From an uncultured Mucilaginibacter sp. (lineage in GTDB: Bacteria; Bacteroidota; Bacteroidia; Sphingobacteriales; Sphingobacteriaceae): a stretch of 32,397 nt of DNA. Of this stretch, positions 1,519-27,014 are shown one piece after another. Every line of letters begins with the position of its first letter. The stretch's first letter is position 1. A model generated the notes under the pieces. That model saw only the letters and a program-made list of their open reading frames with translations. It did not search any database and was not told the DNA's origin. Where the stretch lies: the NCBI RefSeq assembly GCF_903913935.1, contig NZ_CAIWNH010000402.1, positions 1 to 32,397 on the forward strand. Reading direction: 5' to 3'. A program made the position numbers and the translations under genes.

Positions 1519-2895
1519 ATGCTAACTGTTGAAAAAATAGGCGGGACGTCCATGAGCGCCCTGGGTGAGGTAATTAATAATATTGTTTTGTTTGAACGCT
1601 CCGGGGAGCGTTTGTATAACCGTGTGCTGGTGGTTTCGGCTTTTTCGGGAGTTACTAATATATTGCTTGAAGATAAAAAGACCGGTGCGCCCGGCGTTTA
1701 CCACCAACTGGCAAAATACCAGGATTTTCACGGGCCGTTAAAAGAGCTTGTTTTAAAATTGAAGGCCATTAACCAGCGCTACACGGGGCTGGGGCTCGAT
1801 CTGGATGTCGCCGACCGCTTTATTGAAAACCATGTGGCCCGCGCACAGGTGTACCTCGAAAATTTATCGAATATACTGGCTTCGGGTTATGTGAGCCAGG
1901 AGGGGATCCTGCTGGCAGCAAGGGAAATCCTGGCCTCCATAGGCGAAACACATTCGGCATTTAACCTCACGCACATCTTACAGAACAAAGGCATCCGTGC
2001 AAAACTGATCGACCTGAGCGGCTTTGACGACCCCCGGCCGCTGACGATAGACCAGCGGATAAAGGAAGCATTTTCGACCGTAAAACTGGAAGATTGCCTT
2101 TGCATTGCTACCGGTTATGCCAAGGGCACCGAAGGTATCATGCGGGAATTTGACCGTGGTTATTCGGAAGTGACTTTTAGTAAGATCGCGGAGATCCTGA
2201 AACCGAAGGAGGCCATTATCCATAAAGAATATCACCTTTCCACCGCCGACCCTGCGCTTGTAGGAATTGAAAACTGCAAACCGGTAGGCTTTACCAATTA
2301 TGATATAGCCGACCAGCTGGCCGATGTGGGTATGGAGGCCATCCACCCGAAAGCATCAAAACCGCTTGAGATCAATGGGATCCATTTGCGGATTAAAAAT
2401 ACTTTTGAGCCATCTCATCCTGGTACATTGATCACCAGGGAGTATATCTCAAAACAGAAACGGGTTGAGGTAATTACCGGGATGGATAAACTGGTAATGA
2501 TAGATGCGTATGACCCCTTAATGGTTGGTAATGTGGGCAGTGATTTGCAGATCATGAAGCTGTTCCACAAACATGGCGTCAGCTATACTTTTAAAGCCAC
2601 TAGCGCCAACAGTATTTCGATAGTGATATGGGAGAATGATTTTAATGAAGCACTGATAGCAGACCTGGAAGCAGTAGTGGAAAAGGTTACTGTAGAGCAG
2701 GTGGCTATGGTTTGCCTGCTTGGCACAAATATGGATCAGCCCGGTTTATTGGCTAAAAGCGCTGATGCACTCGCCAGCCATGACATCAACATTAAAAGTG
2801 TCGGGATGGCTCTAAGGAAAGTGAACATCCAGTTCCTGATAGCGCGGGAGGATTTTAAAACCGCGATCATAGCTTTAAATAAAGCAGTTGGTTAA
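1519..2895 (+). CDS. Aspartate kinase (ectoine-cluster-like type)
   Basis: A 458-residue monofunctional aspartokinase that phosphorylates L-aspartate to aspartyl-4-phosphate, the first step toward Lys, Thr, Met or ectoine. The N-terminal kinase loop reads KIGGTSM (residues 7-13) where most family members have KFGGTS. The catalytic domain continues to about residue 300. Two ACT-type regulatory units fill about 310-458, including MVCLLGTNMDQPGLLAKSAD. The stretch GYAKGTEGIMREFDRGYSEVTF with the following IIHKEYHLSTADPALVG resembles, from memory, the aspartokinase found in ectoine clusters (Ask_Ect). No ectABC genes are present here. It is not fused to homoserine dehydrogenase. The gene stands alone and is convergent with the arabinose operon. 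Confidence 0.88.
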   Translation: MLTVEKIGGTSMSALGEVINNIVLFERSGERLYNRVLVVSAFSGVTNILLEDKKTGAPGVYHQLAKYQDFHGPLKELVLKLKAINQRYTGLGLDLDVADRFIENHVARAQVYLENLSNILASGYVSQEGILLAAREILASIGETHSAFNLTHILQNKGIRAKLIDLSGFDDPRPLTIDQRIKEAFSTVKLEDCLCIATGYAKGTEGIMREFDRGYSEVTFSKIAEILKPKEAIIHKEYHLSTADPALVGIENCKPVGFTNYDIADQLADVGMEAIHPKASKPLEINGIHLRIKNTFEPSHPGTLITREYISKQKRVEVITGMDKLVMIDAYDPLMVGNVGSDLQIMKLFHKHGVSYTFKATSANSISIVIWENDFNEALIADLEAVVEKVTVEQVAMVCLLGTNMDQPGLLAKSADALASHDINIKSVGMALRKVNIQFLIAREDFKTAIIALNKAVG

Positions 2896-2970
2896 GGCTA
2901 CCGGATGACGGAACTAGCCAGAACCGTTCATGTTTTTTGCTGTTTATTGAATGACAGGCATATAAAAAAG

Positions 2971-3008
2971 AAACAGGCATACAGGTTTTTTACCCGGTAT
3001 GCCTGTTT
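2971..3008. terminator. Rho-independent terminator shared by aspartate kinase and ara operon
   Basis: aaacaggcatac (2971-2982) pairs perfectly with gtatgcctgttt (2997-3008) across a 14-base loop. Read on the minus strand it starts 11 bases after the araA stop and is followed by a T-rich tract (cttttttat), a classic terminator. Read on the plus strand, after the aspartate kinase stop, the T tract is weaker. It lies between convergent genes, so it may serve both. Confidence 0.85.
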
Positions 3009-3019
3009 TGTAAAAATGC

Positions 3020-4510
3020 TTATTTATAGGCTGCCTCGTTCCACCGGATTTCATTTCGGAACTGATCAAGCCTGGTGTCTTTGCCAATCCGTAAAAACTC
3101 CAGCCCTGCCATATCTGCAAAATCCTGTAAATGTTCAGCAGTGAGGTTTTGGCTGTAGGCGGTATGATGGGCGCCCCCGGCATAGATCCATGCGGCACAG
3201 CCTGTTTTCATATCCGGGTACGGCTTCCAGAGTACACGTGCCACTGGCAGTTTAGGCAATTCATGTTGTGGTTCAACAGCGTCAACCTCGTTGATCAGCA
3301 GCCTGAAACGGTTGCCCATATCAATGATGGATGCATTTAATGCAGGCCCTCCGGCCACATTAAACACCAGGCGGGCAGGGTCAGCTTTGCCGCCAATACC
3401 CAGCGGGTGCACTTCAAGCGCTATTTTGCCTTTTGCTAAGGAACTGTCAATTTCGAGCATATGCGAACCCAGTACCAGGTTATTATCCGGGTCGAAATGA
3501 TAAGTATAATCTTCCATAAAGGCATTGCCGCCTTTAAGCCCGCTGCCCATTACTTTAAATGCGCGTACCAGGGCCGCGGTCTTCCAGTCGCCTTCACCTG
3601 CAAACCCATAACCTGCCTCCATTAAGCGCTGGGCCGCAATACCCGGAAGCTGCACCATGCCATGCAAGTCTTCAAACGTATCAGTAAAACCTTTAAAGCC
3701 GCCATTTTCTAAAAACGTACGCAGGCCAATCTCAATTCTGGCAGCCTCGTAAACCGATGAATGCTTTTCTCCGCCTTTAAGCAGTGCAGCATCCATGGTA
3801 TAAGTTGCTTCGTATTCGGCCACCAGCGCATCAATTGCTTCTTCGCTAACGGCGTTGATTACGGCAACAAGGTCGCCTACGCCATAGGTATTAACAGCAT
3901 AGCCAAACTTAAGTTCCGCTTCCACCTTATCACCCTCGGTAACTGCTACAAAGCGCATATTATCGCCAAAGCGGGCAAACTTTGCACCCTGCCAGTCGTG
4001 CCAGCCGGCTGCCGCCCTTGTCCAGGCATCAATTTGTGCCAATACTTCGTTATCCTGCCAGTGGCCAACCACCACTTTCCGGTTTTTGCGCATGCGCGAA
4101 ACAATAAATCCAAACTCACGATCGCCATGGGCGCTTTGGTTTAAATTCATAAAGTCCATATCAATCGAACTCCAGGGGATATCGCGGTTAAATTGGGTAT
4201 GCAGGTGAAGCATCGGTTTTTGCAGGATACTTAAACCGCGGATCCACATTTTTGCAGGAGAGAAAGTATGCATCCAGGTAATAATACCAATACAGTTTTC
4301 GGCCCTGTTAGCCTCCATAAGGGTTTCATAAATTTCTTCCGTGCTCTTTACGATAGGCTTGTAGACAATACGAACGGGTATTTTTCCGGAAGCATCAATA
4401 CCTTTTGCTATTTGCTGCGAATGTTCGGCAACAAGTTTTAGCGTTTCTTCGCCATAAAGATGCTGGCTGCCGGTGATAAACCAGACTTCAAATTTTTTCA
4501 GATCGATCAT
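3020..4510 (-). CDS. araA: L-arabinose isomerase
   Basis: A 496-residue cytoplasmic, metal-dependent isomerase converting L-arabinose to L-ribulose, the first catabolic step. The length matches the E. coli enzyme (500). Active-site landmarks are visible: Glu in AGEGDWKT (about residue 306), Glu in MEDYTYH (about 333), His in GSHMLE (about 350) and His in GGAHHT near the C-terminus. The N-terminus [16 protein letters not shown] is typical. It is the last gene of the minus-strand araR-araB-araD-araA set, 66 bases after araD, and is closed by the hairpin at 2971-3008. Confidence 0.97.
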
Positions 4511-16708: not shown

Positions 16709-17083
16709 TTAAAATAATACCCTTTGATATTCTAACGAAGGGGTTCCAAAGTTTACGACAATGCCTAATCGAAGCCCTGAGGCTTTAAGATAATTAAGAG
16801 TTCGTTTAAGATATGGTTCACCAATGTAGTTGCCGATTTTTATTTCGAGAATGATATTTTCATAAACAACAAAATCAGCAACGAAGAAGTGTTTAAGTTT
16901 ATGCCCCTTGTAGGTTATAGTGTAAGGCTTTTCTCTTATAAAAGGAATTTCTAATTTAATTAATTCAAGTTCGAGTGCGTCTTTGTAAACAGTCTCTTTA
17001 AATCCATGACCTAATACTTTATGCACTTCAAAACAAGCTCCAATAATTTTGAATGATTCGTCTTTAAATAATATATCAGCCAT
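16709..17083 (-). CDS. GxxExxY family protein (PDDEXK-like)
   Basis: A 124-residue protein with the defining motif G27-F-x-E30-x2-Y33 inside LGHGFKETVYKDAL. A nuclease-like D70 and E80-x-K82 (VADFVVYENIILEIK) recall the PDDEXK fold. The C-terminus LNYLKASGLRLGIVVNFG is typical. Family members are about 120-140 residues, often occur in many copies per genome, and have no firmly established function. It stands alone between mazG-like and dtd genes and has ACGAATT-type repeats on both sides, in step with the idea that gene and repeat travel together. Its sequence is noticeably more A/T-rich than its neighbours. Confidence 0.88.
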   Translation of the reverse strand: MADILFKDESFKIIGACFEVHKVLGHGFKETVYKDALELELIKLEIPFIREKPYTITYKGHKLKHFFVADFVVYENIILEIKIGNYIGEPYLKRTLNYLKASGLRLGIVVNFGTPSLEYQRVLF

Positions 17084-17084
17084 A

Positions 17085-17216
17085 AATAGACACTAATTAC
17101 ACGAATGTATGCGAATTAAACAAATTTAAAGACCATCAATTCGTTCAATTAGATTTAATTCGTGGAATTAGTGTCAACTCAATTCGTGAAATTCGAACTC
17201 ATTCGCGACTTTTCGT
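17085..17216. repeat. ACGAATT-type repeat cluster 2 (inverted arms)
   Basis: The first half reads in the acgaatt direction (atagacactaattacacgaa from about 17086). The second half is in the reverse direction (aattcgtggaattagtgt, then aattcgtgaaattcg, ending ttcgtgtctat), so the whole could fold into a long imperfect hairpin. It runs into the last few codons of dtd. Confidence 0.7.
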
Positions 17217-17651
17217 GTCTATTATTATTGTGACCGGTCCATCATTTACCAAAGCGATCTTCATATCGGCCCCAAAAATCCCTGTTTCAATTTTTTTGCT
17301 TGTTAATTCTTCCAGCACTTTGATCATCTTTTCATAAACCGGGATCGCCTTCTCCGGACGTGCGGCTCTGATAAACGAAGGCCTGTTCCCTTTTTTGGTT
17401 TGGGCGAAGAGGGTGAACTGGGAGATCAGCAGGATACCGCCGTTTATATCGGCCAATGCCTTATTCATCAGCCCGTTCTCATCGCCGAAAACGCGGAGAT
17501 TGGAAATTTTTTGCGCCAGCCATTGGAGGTCGTCTTCGGTATCTGCATCTTCAATACCAAGCAACACCAAAAATCCGGTAGTTATGGCGCCTGTTATTTT
17601 GTTTTCAACCGTGCAACTGGCTTCTGAAACACGCTGTATTACTGCTCGCAT
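17199..17651 (-). CDS. dtd: D-aminoacyl-tRNA deacylase
   Basis: A 150-residue homodimeric proofreading enzyme that frees tRNA from D-amino acids and mischarged glycine. The two cross-subunit motifs are intact: S77-Q-F-T80 (ISQFTLFAQ) and N136-D-G-P-V-T141 (family NxGPxT). The N-terminus MRAVIQRVSEASCTV and the length are standard. The last codons (DTKSRE) look natural for the family but fall in sequence that also matches the flanking repeat (gacacgaaaagtcgcgaa), so the repeat adjoins or overlaps the coding end. Confidence 0.96.
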   Translation of the reverse strand: MRAVIQRVSEASCTVENKITGAITTGFLVLLGIEDADTEDDLQWLAQKISNLRVFGDENGLMNKALADINGGILLISQFTLFAQTKKGNRPSFIRAARPEKAIPVYEKMIKVLEELTSKKIETGIFGADMKIALVNDGPVTIIIDTKSRE

Positions 17652-17654
17652 AGT

Positions 17655-17800
17655 GATTAATACTAATTGTCACGAATGTATTCGAATTACACGAATTAGA
17701 GAAAAGAATATGACTTATTTGGTCTATTTGAATCGGTTCGTAAAAAATAATACCGGTTCGATTCGTCAAATTCGTAATAATTCGTGAAATTCGCGGCCAT
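17655..17800. repeat. ACGAATT-type repeat cluster 3 (inverted arms)
   Basis: The left part (tactaattgtcacgaatgta, then ttcgaattacacgaattag) is followed by a right part in the opposite direction (attcgtcaaattcgtaataa, then ttcgtgaaattcg). It fills the divergent gap between dtd and the PLP enzyme and ends at the latter's start. The in-frame GTG at 17784 belongs to the repeat, which is why ATG at 17802 is preferred for the enzyme. Confidence 0.7.
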
Positions 17801-17801
17801 T

Positions 17802-19037
17802 ATGACTCATAAGAAGGGTTTTACAACTACCATATTACATTCCGACCGTTTAGGCAAACCCGAACACGGCGCGCTGCATAAACCGATCCATACCTCCGTA
17901 ACCTTTGGTTACGACGATGTGCAGGACCTGGTGGATATTTTTCAGAATAAGAAAAAAGGATACGCTTACAGTCGCCAGGGTAGCCCCACAGCTTCCGCGC
18001 TGGAAACAAAAATAACCGCCATGGAAAATGGCATGGCTACCATCACGTTTTCTACAGGGATGGCCGCCATTACATCAACCATTTTGGCGCTGATCAAAAA
18101 AGGGGATCATATTGTGGCCAGTTCGTATTTATTTGGCAATACCCGCAGTGTGTTCCAGTCGTTTATTGATTTAGGGCTCGATTTTACATTTGTTGATGCT
18201 ACCTCTATTGATGAGGTGAAAAAAGCGGTACAACCGAATACCCGCCTGCTTTTTGTTGAAACCATTGCCAACCCGGCAACGCAAATTGCCGATCTCGAAA
18301 AAATAGGCGACCTGTGTGCCGAAAAAGGTATTATTTACATGGTAGATAATACCATGACCTCGCCTTACCTGTTCAATCCAAAGAAAGTTAAAGCAAGTTT
18401 GGTAATGAACTCGCTGACCAAATATATTGGCGGCCATGGCAATGCCCTGGGCGGCAGCGTAACGGATACCGGCCTGTTTAATTGGGAGAACTATCCGAAT
18501 ATATTCCCCGGCTTTAAAACGCAGGTAAAACCCGAAGTGTTTGGTATTACCCAGATCAGGAAAAAAGGATTGAGGGATGCCGGTGGCACCTTATCGCCCG
18601 AAGCGGCACATTCTATCTCAGTTGGCTCCGAGACGCTGGCATTGCGCCTTGAAAGGGCCTGTAATAACGCTTTTGCCCTGGCTACCTTTTTTGAAGGCCA
18701 CCCGATGATCAAAAAAGTATTTTATCCTGGGCTTGAATCGCACCCTCAGCATAAATTGGCAAGCCGCCTGTTTTTAAAATACGGTGGACTCATGAGCATC
18801 GAGCTGGATGAGAGCGTCGACTGTTTCGAGTTTTTAAATAAGCTGAAACTGGTGGTAAAATCGAGCAACCTGGGCGATACCCGTACGTTGGCTATCCCCG
18901 TGGCACATACCATTTTTAACGAACTCGGCCGCGAAAAAAGGGCCGAAATGGGCATATCTGAATCCATGATCAGGTTATCTATCGGTATTGAAGATCTGGA
19001 TGATCTGCTGCATGATTTTAAGGTGGCGCTGGGATAG
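17802..19037 (+). CDS. Cystathionine gamma-synthase family PLP enzyme
   Basis: A 411-residue type I PLP enzyme of the Cys/Met metabolism family. The cofactor lysine is K207 in NSLTKYIGGHGNALGG. YSRQGSPTASALE supplies phosphate-binding contacts from the partner subunit, and FSTGMAAITSTILALIKKGD with VVDNT-type IYMVDNTMTSPYL is typical. Members perform cystathionine gamma-synthesis, O-acylhomoserine sulfhydrylation or gamma-lysis of methionine; sequence alone does not settle which. ATG at 17802 is preferred because the six codons upstream come from the repeat. A diverged copy of its last 21 codons lies 1.2 kb downstream, beyond the first WKNG lipoprotein gene. Confidence 0.9.
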   Translation: MTHKKGFTTTILHSDRLGKPEHGALHKPIHTSVTFGYDDVQDLVDIFQNKKKGYAYSRQGSPTASALETKITAMENGMATITFSTGMAAITSTILALIKKGDHIVASSYLFGNTRSVFQSFIDLGLDFTFVDATSIDEVKKAVQPNTRLLFVETIANPATQIADLEKIGDLCAEKGIIYMVDNTMTSPYLFNPKKVKASLVMNSLTKYIGGHGNALGGSVTDTGLFNWENYPNIFPGFKTQVKPEVFGITQIRKKGLRDAGGTLSPEAAHSISVGSETLALRLERACNNAFALATFFEGHPMIKKVFYPGLESHPQHKLASRLFLKYGGLMSIELDESVDCFEFLNKLKLVVKSSNLGDTRTLAIPVAHTIFNELGREKRAEMGISESMIRLSIGIEDLDDLLHDFKVALG

Positions 19038-19138
19038 GGGCCGCAAGGCAGGAAGAAGTATTTTGAGCGTAAATTTCATAATATTCCTGGTTGAATACCG
19101 AATTTGTTTATATTTACATCATCTTAAATCTTATTTAG

Positions 19139-20221
19139 TTGATGAATATAAAATACGTCCTATGCCTTGCAGCGATAATTATTATTTTAATAACATCTTG
19201 CTCAAAAAGCCCATCGAATAAATCTGACAGCGGTCCAAAAACTACTGATACCACAACTTTACCCAATAATCATGCGCCTGATATATACCTCACAGGTGCG
19301 ATTAATGGACCAACAAATAAACAGACGGCTACTTATTGGAAAAATGGCGCTGCAACGGTATTATCCAGTGCCGAAACCGACGGTTTATCTATTGCAGTAT
19401 CCGGGAAAGATGTATACGTGGCTGGGATCAGGGCTGCTACTAATAGTAATGTCGTTGTAGTACTTTGGAAAAACGGCATATTAACCGATATCAGCGATAG
19501 TTCGCAATTCGCTACTTCCCGAGGAATGGTAATGCTGGGGAATGATGTTTATATAGCAGGTTATAAATTTGTTCCGGGAAGCACAAAGGGAATATTATGG
19601 AAAAATGGGGTGGAACAAGATTTGTCAAGTATCGGCAATGAAAATGTCTACCCACAGGGTATTTCAGTTAATGGCAGTGATATTTATATAACTGGCTATA
19701 CAACTTCTGATTCAGGAACACCGGATGAAAATGCCATATACTGGAAAAACGGTATCGAAACCAAACTTCCTTTGGGTGACTTTACTACTTCAATAGCATC
19801 CAGTATTTGCGCGAGCGGCGCAGACATATATGTCGCCGGGTATGGCGTGGACAAGGTGACTGGTTTTAATGTCGCAGTATACTGGAAGAATGGTGTGGAA
19901 TATAAATTGGGTGATATAAAATCTGATACATTTTCGGCAGCTATCGCAGTGCAGGGGACCAATGTGTACGTCGCCGGCACAGTTAGCGACGCTTCAGGGG
20001 TATCAACAGCCGTTTTGTGGAAAAATGGGGTCCTCAGCAAATTGGGCGACGGGTCATTAAATTCATATTGTACAGCCATGGGATTCGATGGGAACGACCT
20101 GTATATTGCGGGTCATAATCACTATGGCGCAGTGGTATGGAAAAATGGTGTGGCACAGCAAATAACAACAGACAATAGTTCAAACTCCGCGATATCGTCT
20201 TTAGTTTTGGTTCCAAAATAA
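19139..20221 (+). CDS. WKNG-repeat lipoprotein 1, predicted seven-bladed beta-propeller
   Basis: A 360-residue predicted lipoprotein. Signal segment YVLCLAAIIIILITSC has lipidated Cys21, then a Ser/Thr/Lys-rich linker to about residue 48. The rest is seven repeats of about 45 residues built as IAVxGxDVYVAG...AxYWKNGxxxxL; WKNG occurs seven times. The first repeat starts at DIYLTG, without the usual preceding strand, and the C-terminus ends with the strand SSLVLVPK that would complete it, as in a ring-closed propeller. Function is unknown; a surface or periplasmic binding role is plausible. It is paralogous to the genes at 22981 and 24167. It lies between the PLP enzyme gene and a relic copy of that gene's 3' end. 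MMNIK offers two starts one codon apart. Confidence 0.85.
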   Translation: MMNIKYVLCLAAIIIILITSCSKSPSNKSDSGPKTTDTTTLPNNHAPDIYLTGAINGPTNKQTATYWKNGAATVLSSAETDGLSIAVSGKDVYVAGIRAATNSNVVVVLWKNGILTDISDSSQFATSRGMVMLGNDVYIAGYKFVPGSTKGILWKNGVEQDLSSIGNENVYPQGISVNGSDIYITGYTTSDSGTPDENAIYWKNGIETKLPLGDFTTSIASSICASGADIYVAGYGVDKVTGFNVAVYWKNGVEYKLGDIKSDTFSAAIAVQGTNVYVAGTVSDASGVSTAVLWKNGVLSKLGDGSLNSYCTAMGFDGNDLYIAGHNHYGAVVWKNGVAQQITTDNSSNSAISSLVLVPK

Positions 20222-20239
20222 CATTCAGTAATCGCTTAT

Positions 20240-20305
20240 AGTTTATCCATTGGTATTGAAGACCTGGACGATCTGCTGCATGATTTCAAAGTGGAGCTGG
20301 GGTAG
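20240..20305 (+). pseudogene. Relic of the 3' end of a cystathionine gamma-synthase family gene
   Basis: These 66 bases align without gaps to the last 22 codons (stop included) of the gene at 17802-19037, with 9 differences. Seven are synonymous; the other two are Arg to Ser and Ala to Glu. It reads SLSIGIEDLDDLLHDFKVELG and then TAG. Similarity fades a few codons upstream and stops at the TAG. It begins 19 bases after the stop of WKNG gene 1, in the same frame. The mainly silent differences show that it diverged while still part of a functional gene. Confidence 0.85.
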
Positions 20306-20366
20306 ACGATGGCGTTTAGTTTTTGATTGATAATTATGTATTTTTGTAATAGAAAAAGTGAAAAGT

Positions 20367-20595
20367 ATGGTAACTATCAGCTCAACTTTGGAGGACATCA
20401 TGAAACTGGACTATGCATCCAGGGAAATGCTGTTGGAAATATTGCAAAAAAAGACAAATTGAAGCCCGCAGGGATGACATCGCCCGCAGCGCTAAAATAT
20501 CGTTAAGAGAATATCATTCAGGGAAAATTACTCCTATTACTGCCGACGAAGCAATGAAGAAGTTGCAGGCTTTGGCTAAATCCTCAATTGACTAA
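20367..20595 (+). pseudogene. Frameshifted antitoxin-like gene without a toxin
   Basis: Frame 1 from ATG 20367 gives MVTISSTLEDIMKLDYASRE and then MLLEILQ, and stops soon after the A7 run at 20446-20452. Removing one A joins it to the next frame, RQIEARRDDIARSAKISLRE then YHSGKITPITADEAMKKLQ, giving a 75-residue product. This resembles small antitoxins found upstream of RelE/ParE-type toxins in Bacteroidota, from memory. No toxin follows; the next gene is on the other strand. It could be a relic, a sequencing slip at a homopolymer, or a site of slippage. A TATTTTTG box lies at 20339-20346. Confidence 0.65.
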
Positions 20596-20613
20596 GGAAC
20601 CGGCACTTAATTT

Positions 20614-20856
20614 CTATTTATCAGAATAATCTTCATAAGCAATATATATTGTGCATAGTACACTTTCAGTACCCGAGCTAAATGACGGCTTCGGTAGATA
20701 TGTTGTTTGCCCGTTAAGTATTCTATATTCTTTTATAGAATGTGCCTTTAAAAAATCAATCAGTTTCTTATTTAGTATTTCGTTAATTCCATCGTCATCT
20801 TTTATACCAGGATTCCCGGCCGGATAAGTATAAGAAAATCTTGCAAATAATTCCAT
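20614..20856 (-). CDS. Hypothetical small protein (80 aa)
   Basis: An 80-residue acidic-to-neutral protein with mixed alpha/beta character (FARFSYTYPAGNPGI, ILNKKLIDFLKAHSIKEYRI, VLCTIYIAYEDYSDK). It has no signal peptide or membrane segment and resembles no family I know. The composition looks like a real protein, but it stands alone between two relics, without a visible ribosome binding site. It might be a remnant or a small accessory protein. Confidence 0.5.
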   Translation of the reverse strand: MELFARFSYTYPAGNPGIKDDDGINEILNKKLIDFLKAHSIKEYRILNGQTTYLPKPSFSSGTESVLCTIYIAYEDYSDK

Positions 20857-20927
20857 CTGACAATTTACGGTTTTTTTAGAAATATGCTCGAACTTGTATA
20901 AATCATGTCACTAAAAAAATCCGAAAT

Positions 20928-20994
20928 CGAACATCCGACTTCCGAAATCCCGTCACGCTCTCGTATCATTCCCATGATAAATACTCAAATAACT
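20928..20994 (-). pseudogene. Relic of the 3' end of rsgA
   Basis: Read on the minus strand, 20994-20953 encodes SYLSIYHGNDTRA and stop. This is the C-terminus of RsgA (SYLSIYNGNDTRA at 21883-21842), with 4 base differences in 42, three of them silent. The next 25 bases after the stop also match the sequence after the real rsgA stop, with 3 differences. Upstream of the relic the RsgA reading is lost. The two copies are direct repeats bracketing the antitoxin/PIN-toxin pair. Confidence 0.8.
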
Positions 20995-21153
20995 TCTATT
21001 ACGAAAGCCGTTTCCGCTTTTGATTTTTGCAGGTGCCAGGTCTTGTAAATAATCGGATAAGTTCGTGTTCGATCTTAGCTTTTTGTAAAAATCAACTTAA
21101 AGAATATATCGGCATATTTGTATATAAGATTACAATAAAACTAAATTTACAAA
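20995..21153. other. Upstream region of the toxin-antitoxin pair
   Basis: About 160 bases without a gene. A near-match to the -7 box (catatttg, around 21112-21119) lies about 35 bases before the antitoxin ATG and is its likeliest promoter. Confidence 0.3.
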
Positions 21154-21369
21154 ATGGAAGCTGTTGGAAAACTCACTAATGTGCAAATTGAGCTGCTCAA
21201 ATTATTTCAATATAATTTGCCGGAAAAGCAATTAGTTGAAATTAAAAATATGCTTGCAAAATATTTTGCTGATACCGCGACCGCTGAAATGGATAAGTTA
21301 TGGGAGGAAAATAACTGGAATAATGATGTGATGAAAGATTGGGCCAATGAAAATTTAAGAAAGAAATAA
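21154..21369 (+). CDS. Putative antitoxin partner of a PIN-family toxin
   Basis: A 71-residue, mainly helical, charged protein (LTNVQIELLKLFQYNLPEK, then MLAKYFADTATAEMDKLWEE, WANENLRKK). Similar small proteins are commonly encoded directly before PIN-family toxins in Bacteroidota. The gene ends 3 bases before the toxin ATG, so the two are translated from one message. It has no recognised DNA-binding motif. Assignment as the antitoxin rests mainly on this neighbourhood. Confidence 0.7.
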   Translation: MEAVGKLTNVQIELLKLFQYNLPEKQLVEIKNMLAKYFADTATAEMDKLWEENNWNNDVMKDWANENLRKK

Positions 21370-21372
21370 TTT

Positions 21373-21783
21373 ATGATAGCAGTATTGGATACCAATGCTC
21401 TCCCGGTTTCCATCGCACCCAAATCTATTTACAGGCCAATTATTAACGCGCTGATTGAAGGGGATTTTGAATTGGTGCTTAGTAATGACATTTTATCCGA
21501 ATATACCGAAGTTATTGAAAGAAAAGCCAATGCTACTGTGGCTAATAATATTGCGGAAATGCTATTGAGTCTCGATAACCTTAAAAAAGTTGAAGTTTAT
21601 TTTGAGTGGAACTTAATTGGCAAAGATCCGGACGACAACAAGTATGTGGATGCAGCGGTTGTAGGCGGCGCTGATTTTATTGTTACTAATGATCAGCATT
21701 TTAATATTCTTAACGCTGTTCCCTTTCCTAAAGTAAATGTTATTGATATAGACGGTTTCCTTGACATTATATTAAAAAGATAA
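21373..21783 (+). CDS. PIN-domain putative toxin of a toxin-antitoxin pair
   Basis: A 136-residue PIN-domain protein, a metal-dependent RNase fold, of the 'putative toxin-antitoxin system toxin component, PIN family' group. Acidic residues are in place: D6 (VLDTN), E43 (LSEY), D85-x-D87-D88 with D93 (DPDDNKYVDAAV), and D107 (VTNDQHF). Its target would be cellular RNA, but the exact substrate is unknown. It follows its likely antitoxin by 3 bases. The pair is flanked by direct repeats of the rsgA 3' end. All catalytic residues are present, so the toxin looks active. Confidence 0.85.
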   Translation: MIAVLDTNALPVSIAPKSIYRPIINALIEGDFELVLSNDILSEYTEVIERKANATVANNIAEMLLSLDNLKKVEVYFEWNLIGKDPDDNKYVDAAVVGGADFIVTNDQHFNILNAVPFPKVNVIDIDGFLDIILKR

Positions 21784-21841
21784 ACCATTAAATTCCGATC
21801 CCGATAGCTATCAGGACGAAAATCCGACTTCCGAAATCCGC

Positions 21842-22762
21842 TCACGCTCTCGTATCATTCCCATTATAAATACTTAAGTAGCTTTCATACCGTGATAGTT
21901 CTATCTCTCCGTTTTCCAAAGCTTTTAATACGGCGCAGCCGGGCTCATTAATGTGGCGGCAGTTGTGAAACCGGCACTGGTGCATACGGTCGCGCATTTC
22001 GGGGAAGAAGTGGCTCAGCTCCTGTTTTTCTATGTCGATGACACCCAGTTCTCGGATGCCGGGGGTATCAATAATGAATCCACCTTCGGGCAGTTCAAAC
22101 ATTTCGGCAAAGGTGGTGGTATGCATACCCTTGTCGCTCCAGTCGGATACCTGGTTAGTGCGCAGGTCGAGGTCGGGGAGGAGGGCGTTGATCAAACTTG
22201 ATTTACCCACGCCAGAGTGGCCAGAAAATAACGTTACTTTATCTTTCAGCAATGCCTTTACCTGGCTGATATTGGTTCCCTCCAGGGCAGATACTTCATA
22301 GCAGGGATAGCCTATATTTTCGTAAATAGATTTATAGTCTGCTAAAACTTCCAGGCCTTCATCGCTGAAAAGATCGACCTTGTTAAACACCAGCTTCGCC
22401 GGGATGCTGTATGCTTCAGCGGTGACCAGGAAGCGGTCAATAAAACCTAAAGAAGTACGCGGTGAAGCAAGGGTAACCACCAGCAGGGCCTGGTCCAGGT
22501 TGGCGGCAATGATCTGCCCCTGTTTGCTCAGGTTGATGGATTTGCGGATGATATAATTTTTGCGGGGATGCAGGGTTACTATCACGCCGGTTTCCTGATC
22601 GGGCTCCATTTCAAAATCAACCACATCACCCACTGCCAGCGGGTTGGTGGTGGTGATGCCTTTAGTACGGAAGATCCCTTTAATGCGGCAGTCCGTTCTG
22701 TGGCCGTCGTTTGAAAGAACGCTGTACCAGCTTCCGGTTGATTTAATGATAAGTCCCTGCAT
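21842..22762 (-). CDS. rsgA: Ribosome small-subunit-dependent GTPase A
   Basis: A 306-residue circularly permuted GTPase that assists late 30S assembly. N-terminal OB fold (about 1-65), then G4 NKVDL (about 125), the P-loop GHSGVGKSSLINALL (about 180), switch motif DTPG, and a C-terminal zinc knuckle C-x4-C-x-H-x5-C (CRFHNCRHINEPGC, about 261-274). The order G4-G1-G3 is the family hallmark. Its length is normal. A near-match -7 box (TACCTTTA on the minus strand) lies just upstream. A relic copy of its last 13 codons lies 0.9 kb away, beyond the toxin-antitoxin pair. Confidence 0.96.
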   Translation of the reverse strand: MQGLIIKSTGSWYSVLSNDGHRTDCRIKGIFRTKGITTTNPLAVGDVVDFEMEPDQETGVIVTLHPRKNYIIRKSINLSKQGQIIAANLDQALLVVTLASPRTSLGFIDRFLVTAEAYSIPAKLVFNKVDLFSDEGLEVLADYKSIYENIGYPCYEVSALEGTNISQVKALLKDKVTLFSGHSGVGKSSLINALLPDLDLRTNQVSDWSDKGMHTTTFAEMFELPEGGFIIDTPGIRELGVIDIEKQELSHFFPEMRDRMHQCRFHNCRHINEPGCAVLKALENGEIELSRYESYLSIYNGNDTRA

Positions 22763-22858
22763 AATGGCGGTAAAGGTATTAAATTTAGTAAAGTGTACCG
22801 TTATCCGCTAATAGTAAACCCGGAAAAGGCATCCCGGGTATATCAAAATTATTCTGTT

Positions 22859-22866
22859 TACATTTG
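22859..22866 (+). promoter_or_regulatory. Bacteroidota -7 promoter box before WKNG gene 2
   Basis: TACATTTG matches TAnnTTTG, in the divergent gap between rsgA and WKNG gene 2. It implies a leader of roughly 100 bases. No clear -33 element. Confidence 0.35.
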
Positions 22867-22980
22867 TTTAACGTTTGGCTGATTTGCGCCTAAGCGGTTG
22901 ATTTTCAGGTTTTTTTTATCGTGTGTAGCGTTGTGTTAATTGATGGCGTAATGCTTTTAATAAACTTAAATTCACCAGTA

Positions 22981-24065
22981 ATGAAAGCTAAATCCTTAAT
23001 CCTTATCATGGGCTACGTGGTAGTTTGTTTAGCCGCCTGTAAAAAAACGCAGCTTGTTCATCCAACCATAAAAGCAGCAACTATTACTGACACCACTACC
23101 GATGTGTATGTTGCCGGTTACGTGGTGGCCCAAAACGGAAACAGCGTGGCGGCGTATTGGAAAAATGGTGCGCTAACCCGATTAACAACAGATAGCGCAG
23201 ATGTTTCTGTGGCTTATGGTATTGCGGTACAGGGCAATGATGTTTATGTAGCGGGCCTGGCCCCGGGGGATTCTTCAGGTACCCGGGGGTATTATGGAAA
23301 AATGGTGTGCCTCAAATGCTTTATTACGGAAGAGATTATTCGCAGGCCAGTTGTGTTACTGTGCAGGGAAGCGATGTATACGTTGGTGGTTTTGTTGCCG
23401 GCTCAGGTAGTAACCTGGATTCGGCCATATACTGGAAAAATGGGGTGGGGCATTTACTGCCTTCGCCCATGAGCGGCTCATACCTTACTGCCATAACGCT
23501 AAATGGTTCGGATGTTTATATGGCCGGGGAAACCAACGCTGGTGATTATGCCCACATCCGGGGTACCTATTGGAAAAACGGCGGCTCGCCGGTTACCGTT
23601 CAGCCTGCCGATACCTCTTTATCCTCTTTTGCATTTGCCATCGCCTCATCCGGTTCGGAAGTCGACGTGGCAGGAAGCGCCAAAGGGTATATGGCAACGT
23701 ACTGGAAAAACGGCACGCCTACGCAGTTGGGCAATGCCACGATAGACGGGAGTTATAATTATGGCATTGCAACCAGCGGTTTGGATGTATTTGTAGTTGG
23801 CGCTACTACCCATAACAATTTAAATGTGGCCACTTTATGGAAGAATAATTTGCCAACTTACCTCACATCAGTGGCCCCCCTACATAGTATGGCAAAAGCC
23901 ATTGCTTTAAATGGCCCCGATGTGTACATAGCCGGCTCTACATTCGACAATATTTTTAACAACAATACCACTGCTTATTACTGGAAAAACGGTACTGCTG
24001 TTAAACTCAACGCTGCGGGTTCAAAAGGCGGTTGGGCCAACGCTATTGTGGTGGTGCCTAAGTGA
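22981..24065 (+). pseudogene. WKNG-repeat lipoprotein 2, interrupted by a one-base frameshift
   Basis: The N-terminus MKAKSLILIMGYVVVCLAAC has a lipobox with Cys20. The first frame gives one complete repeat and then loses sense after DSSGTRG. The next frame resumes exactly at VLWKNGVPQMLYYG. The switch lies at the G5 tract 23285-23289; one extra G would give TRGVLWKNG and a 361-residue protein with seven repeats, matching its paralogues (360 and 352). One repeat has WKNN instead of WKNG. The second half retains clean repeats to ANAIVVVPK and stop, so the break is recent, switchable or a sequencing slip. ATG 22981 is chosen for the signal sequence; a GTG at 22921 would extend it implausibly. 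Confidence 0.82.
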
Positions 24066-24166
24066 CCGCAATTAGTTCGTTAACCTTCTGTTTTTTAAAT
24101 TGATACACTAAACGTTCGACACCATAAATTAAACAATGTAATTTTTATTTAAATTGCAGACAAATC

Positions 24167-25225
24167 ATGAATTTAAAATTAACGAATCCTTTTACAATAT
24201 CCTTCAGATTTGAATTGTGCGTCTTTTTATCTGTCTTCGTTTTTTTTGCAGGAACTGGCTGTAAAAAAAGCAGTAACCCCGTGCCAAAAAAAGCGGCGGA
24301 TGTTTATGTTTCGGGATATATAACAGCGTTAAATAACAATAACGTTGCTGCTTATTGGAAAAATGGTGTAATTACAGTGATTGGTGATAGCACTGTATTT
24401 TCTATCGCAACCGGAATCGCGCTTAATGGTCAGGATGTTTATGTGTCCGGAGCTGCAATTTCAGCAACCGGTAATTTTATTGCTACGGTCTGGAAGAACG
24501 GTGTTCCCACGAAACTCACAAATGGCGCCGAAAGTGCGGAGGCTACAGCTGTTACGATAAACGGGAGTGATATTTATGTGGCGGGATATGCCACTAACAA
24601 CGTTGGGGTAATTTCAGCAGCTTATTGGAAAAACAACATGCCTGTTTATCTCACCGGCACGGTTGCACAAGCGATTACGATAAATGGCGGGGACGTTTAT
24701 GCTGCTGGAAGCTCGACACATTTAAACGGGGTTACGGGGGGCTATGTGAATTTGACAACCTATTGGAAAAACGGAGTTGCGACAATTTTACCCAATCCGT
24801 TACCGGGGTTTATCAATGGCTTTGCAGATGGTATAGCTGTTTCGGGTAATGACGTATATATGGTTGGTTATGACGACCAGGGTGAATATTGGAAAAATGG
24901 CACGGCAATGCCGCTCACAGGCGGACAGGGGGCTAATCCATGGGCCATCGCTTTAAGTGGCAACGATGTTTACATTGCTGGCCAGGTTAATAATGCAAAT
25001 AATTTTTTTGTTGCAACGCTATGGAAAAATGGGACAGCCGCCCCACTATCAGACGGGACATCAAATGCAGTAGCGTTTTCAATCACAATAAATGGAAGTG
25101 ATGTTTATACAGCTGGCTATACATCCAAGGGGAATAAGCCTATTCCTACTTACTGGCAAAACAGCAGACCGGTATCGTTTAAATATATTGGGTCATTAAC
25201 CGGAATAGCAGTTGTACAACAGTGA
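24167..25225 (+). CDS. WKNG-repeat lipoprotein 3, predicted seven-bladed beta-propeller
   Basis: A 352-residue predicted lipoprotein with hydrophobic segment CVFLSVFVFFAGTGC and lipidated Cys32, then a short linker (KKSSNPVPKKAA). Seven repeats of about 40-48 residues follow (DVYVSGYITA...AAYWKNGV and so on). The seventh is degenerate (YWQNSR) and one has WKNN. The chain starts at a DVYVSG strand and ends with LTGIAVVQQ, the strand needed to close the first blade. It lies 101 bases after gene 2 in the same direction, and 23 bases before a secreted-protein gene with which it is probably cotranscribed. Function is unknown; the repeats carry no recognisable catalytic motif. Confidence 0.85.
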   Translation: MNLKLTNPFTISFRFELCVFLSVFVFFAGTGCKKSSNPVPKKAADVYVSGYITALNNNNVAAYWKNGVITVIGDSTVFSIATGIALNGQDVYVSGAAISATGNFIATVWKNGVPTKLTNGAESAEATAVTINGSDIYVAGYATNNVGVISAAYWKNNMPVYLTGTVAQAITINGGDVYAAGSSTHLNGVTGGYVNLTTYWKNGVATILPNPLPGFINGFADGIAVSGNDVYMVGYDDQGEYWKNGTAMPLTGGQGANPWAIALSGNDVYIAGQVNNANNFFVATLWKNGTAAPLSDGTSNAVAFSITINGSDVYTAGYTSKGNKPIPTYWQNSRPVSFKYIGSLTGIAVVQQ

Positions 25226-25248
25226 TTTTGAAAAATTGTCAAACGTAA

Positions 25249-25974
25249 ATGAAAATTGTTTTTATCTTTTTAACCATTCTGTTTTTTGGTTTTGTGACAA
25301 GCACCTTTGCGCAGCGAAATAATAAAGTAATCCAATTTGACATTTCCCCTGTTTTGAACGCAAACCCTATAACTACATTTGTAGACAACAGCTTAATCGG
25401 CTGGACGATCGGCATTGACGGCGGAGGGCAGGCTGATGGTTATTGCACAAAATCCGCGGCATTGTTTAACAAACAAGACACCGCACATGCGCTCCCCGAT
25501 GACGCGCTGTTCTCTGCAAATCATTTCCATCCCGCAATACAACTCCATTATTCAAGCGAATATAGCACTGACAACCAGGCGTGCAGCATCGCGGGCATTG
25601 GTGCCGCCCAATTTTCGGTTCCAAAGGCAAAATACAAAGCCATTTTCCTGGCGCTGACAAGTGCCGAAGGCGCGTCGTTCCTGAAAATTACGCTGATTTA
25701 TACAGATGGCGGCGTAGTTAAAAATATCCTGTTGCCCGATTATTACCAGGACATACTACCAGGCGATCAAAACGTTTGTTACCTGGCGCATAACCTGGCT
25801 AAATGGGGACCAGACAACCAAATGACCGAGAAAGATCATCATAATATCGACCTGCTTAAATTAATCCCTGATCACAATAGGAAGCTTACCGGGATAAAGA
25901 TCAGCAAAGGAAAAAAAGGTTACCTGGTTTTTTGGGCAGCGTCAGGGGAGAAGGAAGAAATCGATAGACCATAG
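25249..25974 (+). CDS. Secreted protein of unknown function next to the WKNG cluster
   Basis: A 241-residue protein with a clear signal peptide (VFIFLTILFFGFVTSTFAQ, cleavage after about residue 21). The mature part looks all-beta: FDISPVLNANPITTF, GWTIGIDGGGQADGYCT, FSVPKAKYKAIFLALTSA, FLKITLIYTDGG and IKISKGKKGYLVFWAAS. The pattern recalls carbohydrate-binding jelly rolls, but I recognise no family, so this is only a fold guess. It has three cysteines, in two of which a disulfide is possible. The 23-base spacing from WKNG gene 3 suggests one transcript and perhaps a joint envelope role. Confidence 0.7.
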   Translation: MKIVFIFLTILFFGFVTSTFAQRNNKVIQFDISPVLNANPITTFVDNSLIGWTIGIDGGGQADGYCTKSAALFNKQDTAHALPDDALFSANHFHPAIQLHYSSEYSTDNQACSIAGIGAAQFSVPKAKYKAIFLALTSAEGASFLKITLIYTDGGVVKNILLPDYYQDILPGDQNVCYLAHNLAKWGPDNQMTEKDHHNIDLLKLIPDHNRKLTGIKISKGKKGYLVFWAASGEKEEIDRP

Positions 25975-25994
25975 TCCATGGATGTTTTTCAACC

Positions 25995-26039
25995 CAATCA
26001 ACTTAATCCAACTCAATCACCCCAATCAACTCTATCAAC
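25995..26039. repeat. CAATCAACT-type simple repeat
   Basis: Degenerate copies of caatcaact / caatcacc follow one another (caatcaacttaatccaact, caatcacc, ccaatcaactctatcaacc). They lie between the convergent secreted-protein and transglutaminase genes and abut the latter's CAG/CAA-repeat 3' end. Confidence 0.6.
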
Positions 26040-27014
26040 CTACTGCTGCTGTTGTTGCTGCTGTTGCATGATCTCCATATAGCGTTGATAACTGTTTTTA
26101 GGCGTTTCAGAAATGATGCTGGTGATATGGGCTTCGTTGATCTGGATCTCGGAATTACTTAATACATTTTCATCGTCTACTGATACTGCAACCTCCAGCT
26201 TATGGTTTGATGACCCTTTGTATACTCCTTTAACCGGCGAACAATCTGAAAAATTACGGCCAACGGCCAGGCGTACATGCGTTTCATTGGCAATGCAGTT
26301 ATTGGTGGGGTCGATACCCAGCCAGCCATAGTCCGGGATATAGGCTTCGGCCCAGGCGTGGGTAGCACCAATACCCCGTAAACCTGTACTTTTGCTGGTG
26401 CAGATATAGCCACTTACGTAACGGGCAGGGATATGCACCATGCGCAGCATTTCCATCAGGATGTGCGCAAAATCCTGGCATACGCCGGCTTTTAACTTCC
26501 AAATTTCGTCCAGCGTGGTATCAACGGTAGTTACGCCTTTTATATATTCAAAGTTTTGATAAACATACTCGCAAAAGCGTAATACTACCTGGTAGGGTGC
26601 GTATTCGTTTAGTTTCTCGTGGTCAACAATTGCACGCAATTCATCAAGCCCGACAAAATATTCCTGTTTTAAAAAATCAATATACGGTACTACAAATTGC
26701 AACCGTTTCAGGTCTTCCCATTGCTGGTCGGGGAAAATATCGTTAACCGGCAGTTCGCGGTGTTTGGTTGCCACCCATATTTTTGCATTGATGACCAGCG
26801 CCATATGTGGTTCGCTGTAAGTAAAACTGCCCACTTCGTTGCCATAATAATCAATATGCGTATCCACGTGCGGGTTGCCGGTGATGGTAATTTCCTGTTT
26901 GATCACTTCCTGGTATGCGTCCTTAATCGGAAACAGGATGATCTGGTTGGCACTGTCGCGTACAGGGCTTTCGTAAATATAGCGGGTAATATGCTGGATC
27001 TCAAATTCGGGCAT
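26040..27014 (-). CDS. Transglutaminase-like cysteine protease family protein
   Basis: A 324-residue cytoplasmic protein with an N-terminal beta-domain (about 1-85, FEIQHITRYIYESPVRDSAN) and a transglutaminase-like catalytic core. The catalytic Cys is in KAGVCQDFAHILMEMLR (about 180), His in ATHAWAEAYI (about 220) and Asp in GIDPTNN (about 238). Homologues cluster with circularly permuted ATP-grasp and alpha-E proteins, as here, and are thought to hydrolyse or transfer amide bonds in peptides made by that system. The C-terminus ends in eight consecutive glutamines, encoded by a CAG/CAA microsatellite, which is unlikely to be part of the fold. Confidence 0.92.
   Translation of the reverse strand: MPEFEIQHITRYIYESPVRDSANQIILFPIKDAYQEVIKQEITITGNPHVDTHIDYYGNEVGSFTYSEPHMALVINAKIWVATKHRELPVNDIFPDQQWEDLKRLQFVVPYIDFLKQEYFVGLDELRAIVDHEKLNEYAPYQVVLRFCEYVYQNFEYIKGVTTVDTTLDEIWKLKAGVCQDFAHILMEMLRMVHIPARYVSGYICTSKSTGLRGIGATHAWAEAYIPDYGWLGIDPTNNCIANETHVRLAVGRNFSDCSPVKGVYKGSSNHKLEVAVSVDDENVLSNSEIQINEAHITSIISETPKNSYQRYMEIMQQQQQQQQ

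Follow-up and report, generated by a model that had tools for sequence, protein, structure and literature searches.

Predicted seven-bladed WKNG-repeat propeller lipoproteins in a Mucilaginibacter genome and their relatives in Bacteroidota

Three lipoprotein genes and their predicted fold

We analysed a window of 32,397 nucleotides, which is the whole of one contig (C402) from the 5.26-Mb, 603-contig assembly of an uncultured Mucilaginibacter sp. The window carries three lipoprotein genes, here called A, B and C. Each has seven units of about 44 residues that follow the pattern DVYVAG...YWKNG...L...IAVSG, and we refer to the proteins as WKNG propellers. The initial annotation had reported three lipoprotein genes at these positions. 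They are present there, with corrections to the start of gene A and to the open frame of gene B.

19142..20221, + strand: gene A, lipoprotein (Cys-Ser-Lys after the lipobox) with a predicted seven-bladed WKNG propeller, 359 amino acids (aa), seven units; AlphaFold2 mean predicted local distance difference test score (pLDDT) 91.6, predicted template modelling score (pTM) 0.85, 28 strands
22981..24065, + strand: gene B, lipoprotein (Cys-Lys-Lys) whose frame breaks within unit 2 (about 23268-23307), with a second frame carrying five more units; from translation, internal stop and unit scoring
24167..25225, + strand: gene C, lipoprotein (Cys-Lys-Lys) with a predicted seven-bladed WKNG propeller, 352 aa; AlphaFold2 pLDDT 92.6, pTM 0.86, 28 strands

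Gene A had been read as 360 aa from a TTG at 19139, and we place its start at the ATG at 19142. For gene B, the earlier count of seven units after frame repair is fair, but the gene as sequenced is broken into two frames. By translation, the lipoprotein signal, unit 1 and the start of unit 2 come from the first frame (22981 to about 23300); the second is an open reading frame (ORF) at 23307-24065 with five units scored in 23316-24062. The break may be genuine or may be an error of the fragmented assembly. Gene C has all seven units, with WKNN closing unit 3 and WQNS closing the last.

The three genes are related to one another. In a search of their own genome, gene C matched A at 4e-28 and B at 5e-21, far above chance, and the A and C proteins are 33% identical. 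A fourth family gene lies on contig C250 (L009:4321-6120, - strand) and encodes 599 aa with three IPT/TIG domains N-terminal to the propeller. Another genome of the genus has a relative of this contig-C250 copy at 70% identity (L016). In the family tree A, B and C fall into different sub-groups, and a tree that groups them together stays unrejected by the approximately unbiased test (p 0.246). The lineage-specific expansion that had been proposed may or may not account for the cluster, and the same holds for a recent tripling in place. The accompanying expectation of clustered, multicopy loci agrees with what we found, which is a multigene family of small size whose members stand in tandem in several genomes.

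The seven units had been taken to suggest a seven-bladed beta-propeller. AlphaFold2 models of A and C, built from alignments of the window proteins with proteins of related loci, both predict a closed ring of seven blades with four strands each, and the proposed fold is thus upheld at the level of prediction. The chain opens with strand B of blade 1 and finishes with the strand A that completes this blade. Each unit supplies strands B, C and D, then strand A of the following blade. Closure of the first blade by a C-terminal strand is usual in propellers.

The family and its distant relatives

We delimited the family with a profile scan of one genome per species. It detected the pattern in 342 stretches, of which 282 are related; the 80 best were retained and represent 79 loci. 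Two protein sets were derived. The 70-member set comprises A, C and 68 of the 90 family ORFs from the 79 loci, with duplicates, short and long-stalk members excluded; the unit consensus, the blade comparison and the Asp-Lys counts given below rest on it. The 143-row set comprises ORFs of 240-640 aa from related loci, with E up to 1e-20. Seven units were counted in 127 of these 143 rows, and the remainder have 4 to 8, with one at 13 (the gene B piece is included twice and falls in this remainder both times).

By title, the 79 loci are mostly from Bacteroidota, including Mucilaginibacter, Pedobacter, Chitinophaga, Dyadobacter, Niastella, Flavobacterium, Mesonia, Tannerella and others. Single loci are titled Spirochaetia, Bacillota, Proteobacteria and Holophagaceae, and three of these four are metagenome bins. 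In the phylum sample, matches at E 0.001 occur in 74 of 392 genomes, and 22 of the 74 (own genome included) have a best E ≤1e-30. The genus sample gives matches in 54 of 120 genomes, and in 42 of 96 when limited to good ones. Per genome, only five first-look candidates in the phylum sample and up to 17 in the genus sample were scored, so family presence may be undercounted. The 24 genomes reached through named loci have one to seven matching stretches each, where a stretch is not always a whole gene. The family is patchy across both genus and phylum. A full-text search of open-licence papers by motif and topic retrieved no description of it.

Four scanned proteins have Ig-like domains N-terminal to the propeller, namely TIG (L009), PKD (L044), Big_2 (L085) and fn3 (L158), which would hold the propeller off the membrane. 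Another arrangement occurs in Spirochaetia bacterium MS502-93 (L104), where two tandem genes (1063-2475 and 2634-3857) each encode a TIR domain together with WKNG units. The TIR domains match PF13676 at 4.5e-14 and 3.3e-18, ThsB_TIR was also matched, and a signal peptide is not visible in either protein. Some units are nearly identical within these genes.

The initial annotation could not give the family a functional name, and the databases supply none. None of the window proteins scores above a Pfam or NCBIfam cut-off, and PADLOC has nothing above cut-off for A, C or the protein encoded at 25249, just past gene C. Neither Rax2 (PF12768), searched with A, C and both pieces of gene B, nor the HAF repeat (TIGR02913), searched with the window proteins, gave a hit at E 1; the HAF repeat hits 3 of the 70 members (best E 0.0019). 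The SBBP beta-propeller repeat (PF06739) reaches 11.7 bits with the N-terminal piece of gene B, against a cut-off of 20.5, and does not hit A or C. With cut-offs not applied, hits of the 70-member set scatter over 70 Pfam and 47 NCBIfam families, of which 25 each were listed. Among the matches listed, RIP is found in 14 of 70 members (best 9e-5), TruB-C_2 in 8 (best 8.5e-10) and Kelch_6 in 6 (best 2e-6), and no family is common to more than 14. TruB-C_2 exceeds its cut-off in L044, a protein outside this set. We took the enzyme-family names among these scattered hits as matches to repeats; the Kelch hits may reflect distant kinship.

Ten matches of the phylum sample from outside the 22 strongest genomes were examined, and two of them, reached by the family profile in Bacteroidota, are long Rax2-like proteins (L160:453-3350 and L161:994-3741). 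Both score above the PF12768 cut-off. They differ from the window proteins in having many more VYVGG...W-D/N-G units and a type IX secretion tail, and their units, which read like AIAISGSDVYVGG...IARWDG..W..LG, have W-D-G or W-N-G in place of W-K-N-G. Rax2 and delta-60/DUF5122 (PF17164) repeats likewise occur in long secreted proteins. Judged by sequence, the L160 and L161 units are distant relatives of the WKNG unit.

Searches of Protein Data Bank (PDB) sequences with gene C, a 345-position family profile and a 66-unit profile retrieved nothing credible, and CylK was not listed with either profile. VIA-align placed both models above Z 20 with many propellers (the listed rows, at Z 20 to 29, are propellers as far as their titles tell). 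The best match of both by a clear margin is the C-terminal propeller of CylK (PDB 7FH6, 7RON), which has seven blades likewise: Z 29.4, 2.7 Å, 285 aligned residues and 17% identity for one model, and Z 29.0, 3.1 Å, 289 aligned and 18% for the other, exceeding the best other entry by 4.4 and 4.9 Z units. Below it stand designed seven-bladed proteins, virginiamycin B lyase (Z 24), lactonases and BtuG and, for A, the Photorhabdus PLL/PHL lectins (Z 20.6-22.1, 264-267 aligned, 7-9% identity). These lectins have several like sugar sites around the ring and provide a model for multi-site binding. BtuG (PDB 8BLW, 8PTF; Z 21.5, 3.3 Å, 264 aligned) is the surface vitamin B12-binding lipoprotein of Bacteroides and, like the window proteins, a seven-bladed propeller lipoprotein of Bacteroidota. 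We propose by analogy that the window lipoproteins could work in a BtuG-like way. The genomic settings differ in that BtuG is encoded within btuB operons (the 106 homologues are spread over 106 of 109 such operons, as given in a passage of PMC6143338), whereas the window genes are not beside btuB. The fold that A and C share with all these propellers gives no information on function.

Repeated core, variable loops and lipid anchor

The interpretation that we put forward, and to which we give an even chance, is that these proteins are surface recognition propellers of the outer membrane. They would have a fixed skeleton and variable loops, bind and not catalyse, and be gained and lost quickly. 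A lipobox cysteine and a short linker would tether one closed seven-bladed propeller to the outer membrane. The invariant A-B and C-D turns, on the side of the N-terminal tether, would form the membrane-near face, and the B-C and D-A loops an outward, ligand-binding face with either one central site or seven like sites between blades; the faces are assigned from strand order, not from coordinates.

The skeleton is visible in the unit consensus. Unit length averages 44.1 (s.d. 3.1), and over 489 units the conserved residues, in percent, are D84 V74 Y93 V57 A56 G96 ... A82 x Y84 W97 K92 N96 G87 ... L85 ... I74 x V66 x G73. The lysine and the aspartate tend to occur together within a unit, with Lys in 396 of the 411 units that have the Asp and in 54 of the 78 that do not (Fisher p 1e-11, uncorrected for kinship). 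This co-occurrence suggests, as the simpler reading, a structural Asp-Lys pair in each blade. The repeated Asp-Trp core of WD40 blades has a comparable role. A membrane anchor formed by a ring of seven K-N-G lysines facing the lipid was also considered and was dropped for this simpler reading.

The same data bear on an enzymatic role, in which the family would act like virginiamycin B lyase, the lactonases or the alkylating propeller of CylK. The first rank of CylK for both models and the score of the lyase agree with this, but a shared fold is no proof of function. CylK has calcium sites at its blade junctions and, unlike A and C, an N-terminal calcium-binding domain that is used in catalysis and provides the Arg105 needed for it (according to a passage of PMC8916777). 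A and C have only a signal peptide and a short linker there; their unit 1 starts at residue 46 and 43, respectively. We also searched 45 positions in seven blades across the 70 proteins and found none that is conserved at ≥50% in one blade and <35% overall, which makes a shared catalytic site unlikely, although a site limited to one sub-family would escape this test. We therefore regard an enzymatic role as improbable. Together with the putative Asp-Lys pair, the lack of one-blade conservation points to a scaffold with a repeated core and free loops and away from an enzyme.

The distribution of change over the unit was compared in 12 related pairs. Amino-acid change is 0.9% in the K-N-G turn, 15-16% in strands B and C, 24% in strand A, 25% in D-A loops, 29% in B-C loops and 35% in strand D, counted over units that a motif pattern located in one member of each pair (5 to 7 of 7 units), a procedure that favours turn conservation and to that extent works against our interpretation. 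The DVYV aspartate, the tryptophan and the K-N-G hairpin are nearly constant, and the B-C loops differ in both length and sequence.

The membrane anchoring assumed in the initial annotation is supported by the lipobox motif. By pattern rule, all four copies of this genome and 125 of the 143 family rows have a lipobox cysteine. Lysine occupies position +3 after it in all four own copies (the contig-C250 copy has Cys-Lys-Lys) and in 90 of the 125 rows. As a yardstick we used the same genome, taking its SusD_RagB proteins as surface-exposed and its RND adaptors as periplasm-facing. Among those with a lipobox by the pattern rule, 13 of 13 SusD lipoproteins and 2 of 9 RND adaptor lipoproteins have Lys at +3; a further 4 SusD and 6 RND adaptor proteins are without a lipobox by this rule. 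In Capnocytophaga, Lys at +3 was found in 72% of surface lipoproteins, and the periplasm-facing ones had no highly conserved residue, as stated in a passage of PMC5080379. Because the lysine is present in all four copies, as in the SusD proteins of the same genome, and is rare in RND adaptors, surface display of the propeller lipoproteins is likely. The surface position proposed in the initial annotation is thereby made likely. The lysine of the 13 SusD-type lipoproteins (L115-L130) may be a surface-export mark of this lineage.

Several points weigh against surface recognition. The Capnocytophaga export signal continues after the lysine with acidic residues, and the signals of Bacteroides fragilis and Flavobacterium johnsoniae have acidic residues without the lysine, in the account given in part of PMC5080379. 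Acidic residues at +4/+5 are absent from the four own copies and present in 62 of the 125 rows. Seven of eight Chitinophaga rows in the tree have a signal peptide without a lipobox by the pattern rule, so anchoring is not essential to the family. An arms-race signal was not seen in any region of the 12 related pairs (ratios of nonsynonymous to synonymous differences, pN/pS, 0.01-0.35). Strand D changes more than the B-C loops and, in most proteins, loops evolve faster than cores; variable loops alone are therefore no proof of binding.

The missing acidic residues and the Chitinophaga members would suit a lipoprotein that faces the periplasm and has a structural role in the envelope, as a protein-protein scaffold on the inner leaflet and not a surface receptor. 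BamB is a propeller scaffold in this location. A scaffold would be expected in nearly all members of the genus, but the family was found in fewer than half of them, and the +3 lysine follows the SusD proteins and not the RND adaptors. We consider such a scaffold unlikely, while granting it a real chance.

Possible gene turnover, neighbourhood and significance

The surroundings of gene A and rsgA bear on how single family genes come and go. The following features lie between and beside the propeller genes.

About 17802-19037, + strand: Cys/Met-metabolism gene (PF01053); its 3' end, at 18972..19037, is the first copy of a 66-nt direct repeat (86% identity)
20240..20305, + strand: second copy of the Cys/Met gene tail, just past the gene A stop, from direct-repeat comparison
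20928-20995 and 21817-21884: copies of the rsgA tail, 68 nt, 90% identical, which bracket the small ORF and PIN_3 pair
21154-21369: small ORF for which a Pfam match was not found, preceding the PIN_3 protein
21373-21783: PIN_3 protein (PF13470, 7.7e-19), between the rsgA tail copies
21842..22762, - strand: rsgA, a housekeeping gene between A and B, from comparison with relatives
25249-25974: 241-aa protein with a signal-peptide-like start, 23 nt past gene C; no Pfam or NCBIfam match at E 1

From the Cys/Met gene to rsgA, 2.8 kb contain, in order, gene A, the Cys/Met tail copy, an 80-aa ORF, an rsgA tail copy and the small ORF with the PIN_3 gene, which by sequence are likely a toxin-antitoxin pair. 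Gene A and this pair are thus both inserts bracketed by copies of a flanking gene's tail. The two relatives whose rsgA is most similar (L197, L198) have the Cys/Met gene and rsgA in tail-to-tail orientation, separated by about 100 and 85 nt. The spacing is about 0.3, 0.8, 1.0 and 1.35 kb in four other genomes of the genus that have both genes, and a family gene is seen in none of the six. The brackets fit either an insertion with a displaced tail or a duplication followed by loss.

A tight bracket, defined as direct repeats of ≥35 nt in the 400 nt to each side of a gene, was found around 8 of 87 family genes and around 2 of 368 other genes of similar size (Fisher p 4e-5). Of the eight, L059 and L065 are one orthologous pair, two have repeats that are only 76-77% identical, and in L080 the repeats flank and separate two tandem family genes. 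Of the two bracketed controls, one (L057) borders a family gene. With wider flanks of 2.5 kb on each side the contrast is weaker (12 of 86 family genes and 14 of 264 others). The greater frequency of tight brackets around family genes suggests fast gene turnover. The neighbour labelling of the loci had counted the window genes at 19139-25225, rsgA included, as family genes, and the 400-nt count corrects this. We rejected rsgA as a fixed place of the family. Its cluster accounts for 13 of 80 sources, counting the window. Of 30 rsgA loci in the genus, that of the own genome among them, only 3 have a family gene within 1.5 kb, so the high rsgA share arises from how the loci were found. Carriage by a mobile element was likewise rejected, since gene C has no match in phage and plasmid collections. 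One weak match to a viral contig was seen (L113).

Patchy presence, the broken gene B and the bracketing repeats would also be compatible with selfish or nearly neutral repeat proteins, amplified from one blade and spread by recombination with little function. Mean blade identity is 0.437 within a protein and, between proteins, 0.417 for like-numbered and 0.407 for unlike-numbered blades. Blade position thus keeps little memory, which could mean that single blades were amplified repeatedly, a process described for propellers at large (in a passage of PMC9218822), or that signal was lost with time. Against neutrality, the ratio of nonsynonymous to synonymous substitution (dN/dS) is 0.07-0.34 in the 12 related pairs, indicating that the family is under purifying selection, and the lipobox and the closure by seven units are kept in most rows. 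Near-neutral repeats are, in our judgement, an improbable explanation.

A constant partner gene was not found across the family loci. By motif and BLAST, a SusC/SusD pair is adjacent in one of 79 loci (L083), SusD-like genes lie 2-3 kb off in L052 and L067, and a SusC-type relative is at the edge of L089. The initial annotation had offered glycans, other cells, phage or secreted factors as binding partners, and the neighbourhoods of the 79 loci point to neither glycan, cell nor phage binding. In the window, the neighbours are the Cys/Met gene, rsgA, the PIN_3 pair and the 241-aa protein, whose gene may share the gene C transcript; a transporter gene was not found beside the three genes. No Rfam family was found in 17000-27000 and no tRNA in the window. 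Promoter-like sites number 20, compared with 19.5 in shuffled sequence, and terminator-like sites 10, compared with 7.4.

Some loci would suit a sensor role in a two-component system, with the propeller capturing an external signal and passing it on to an adjacent histidine kinase. Kinases or regulators are labelled near 18 of 79 loci, and in L048, L061 and L084 they are directly divergent. Identified by their C-terminal ends, five LytTR-type regulators occur in 40 loci (0.50 Mb); the background in the same genomes, 954 in 236 Mb, gives an expectation of 2.0 (Poisson p about 0.05). One more in L088, outside the 40 loci, would strengthen the excess. The excess is nevertheless small, the 40 loci were chosen from the 79, and only LytTR regulators, not kinases or LuxR-type regulators, were set against a background. 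No kinase or regulator is labelled in the 19 Mucilaginibacter-titled loci or beside the window genes, and a sensor role appears very improbable to us.

For surface recognition propellers, the family genes would be gained, duplicated and lost quickly, giving each strain its own small set, and such strain-specific sets suit the recognition of a changing partner, be it a polymer, a neighbour cell or a phage. We see the family as uncharacterised members of a known fold, as predicted by the models, with a likely place at the surface and a probable role in recognition. A broader idea, to which we assign only a small chance, is that in bacterial conflict the WKNG propeller serves as a portable recognition head. 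It would be surface-anchored in Bacteroidota, with or without an Ig-like stalk, and fused to anti-phage-type TIR domains, twice in tandem, in the spirochaete. Its genes would come and go singly at the ends of housekeeping genes, marked by displaced tails, so that sets differ per strain.

The bracketing gene tails and the TIR fusions are the most interesting additions to the initial annotation, and the tails give a handle on the entry of single genes into Bacteroidota chromosomes. One motif and a 45-position profile now suffice to find a family that recurs through Bacteroidota and whose window members stay below Pfam and NCBIfam cut-offs. This family provides a natural series of seven-bladed rings, whose blades range from very similar to diverged, that bears on how propellers gain new binding faces, and it is a testable candidate for surface recognition.

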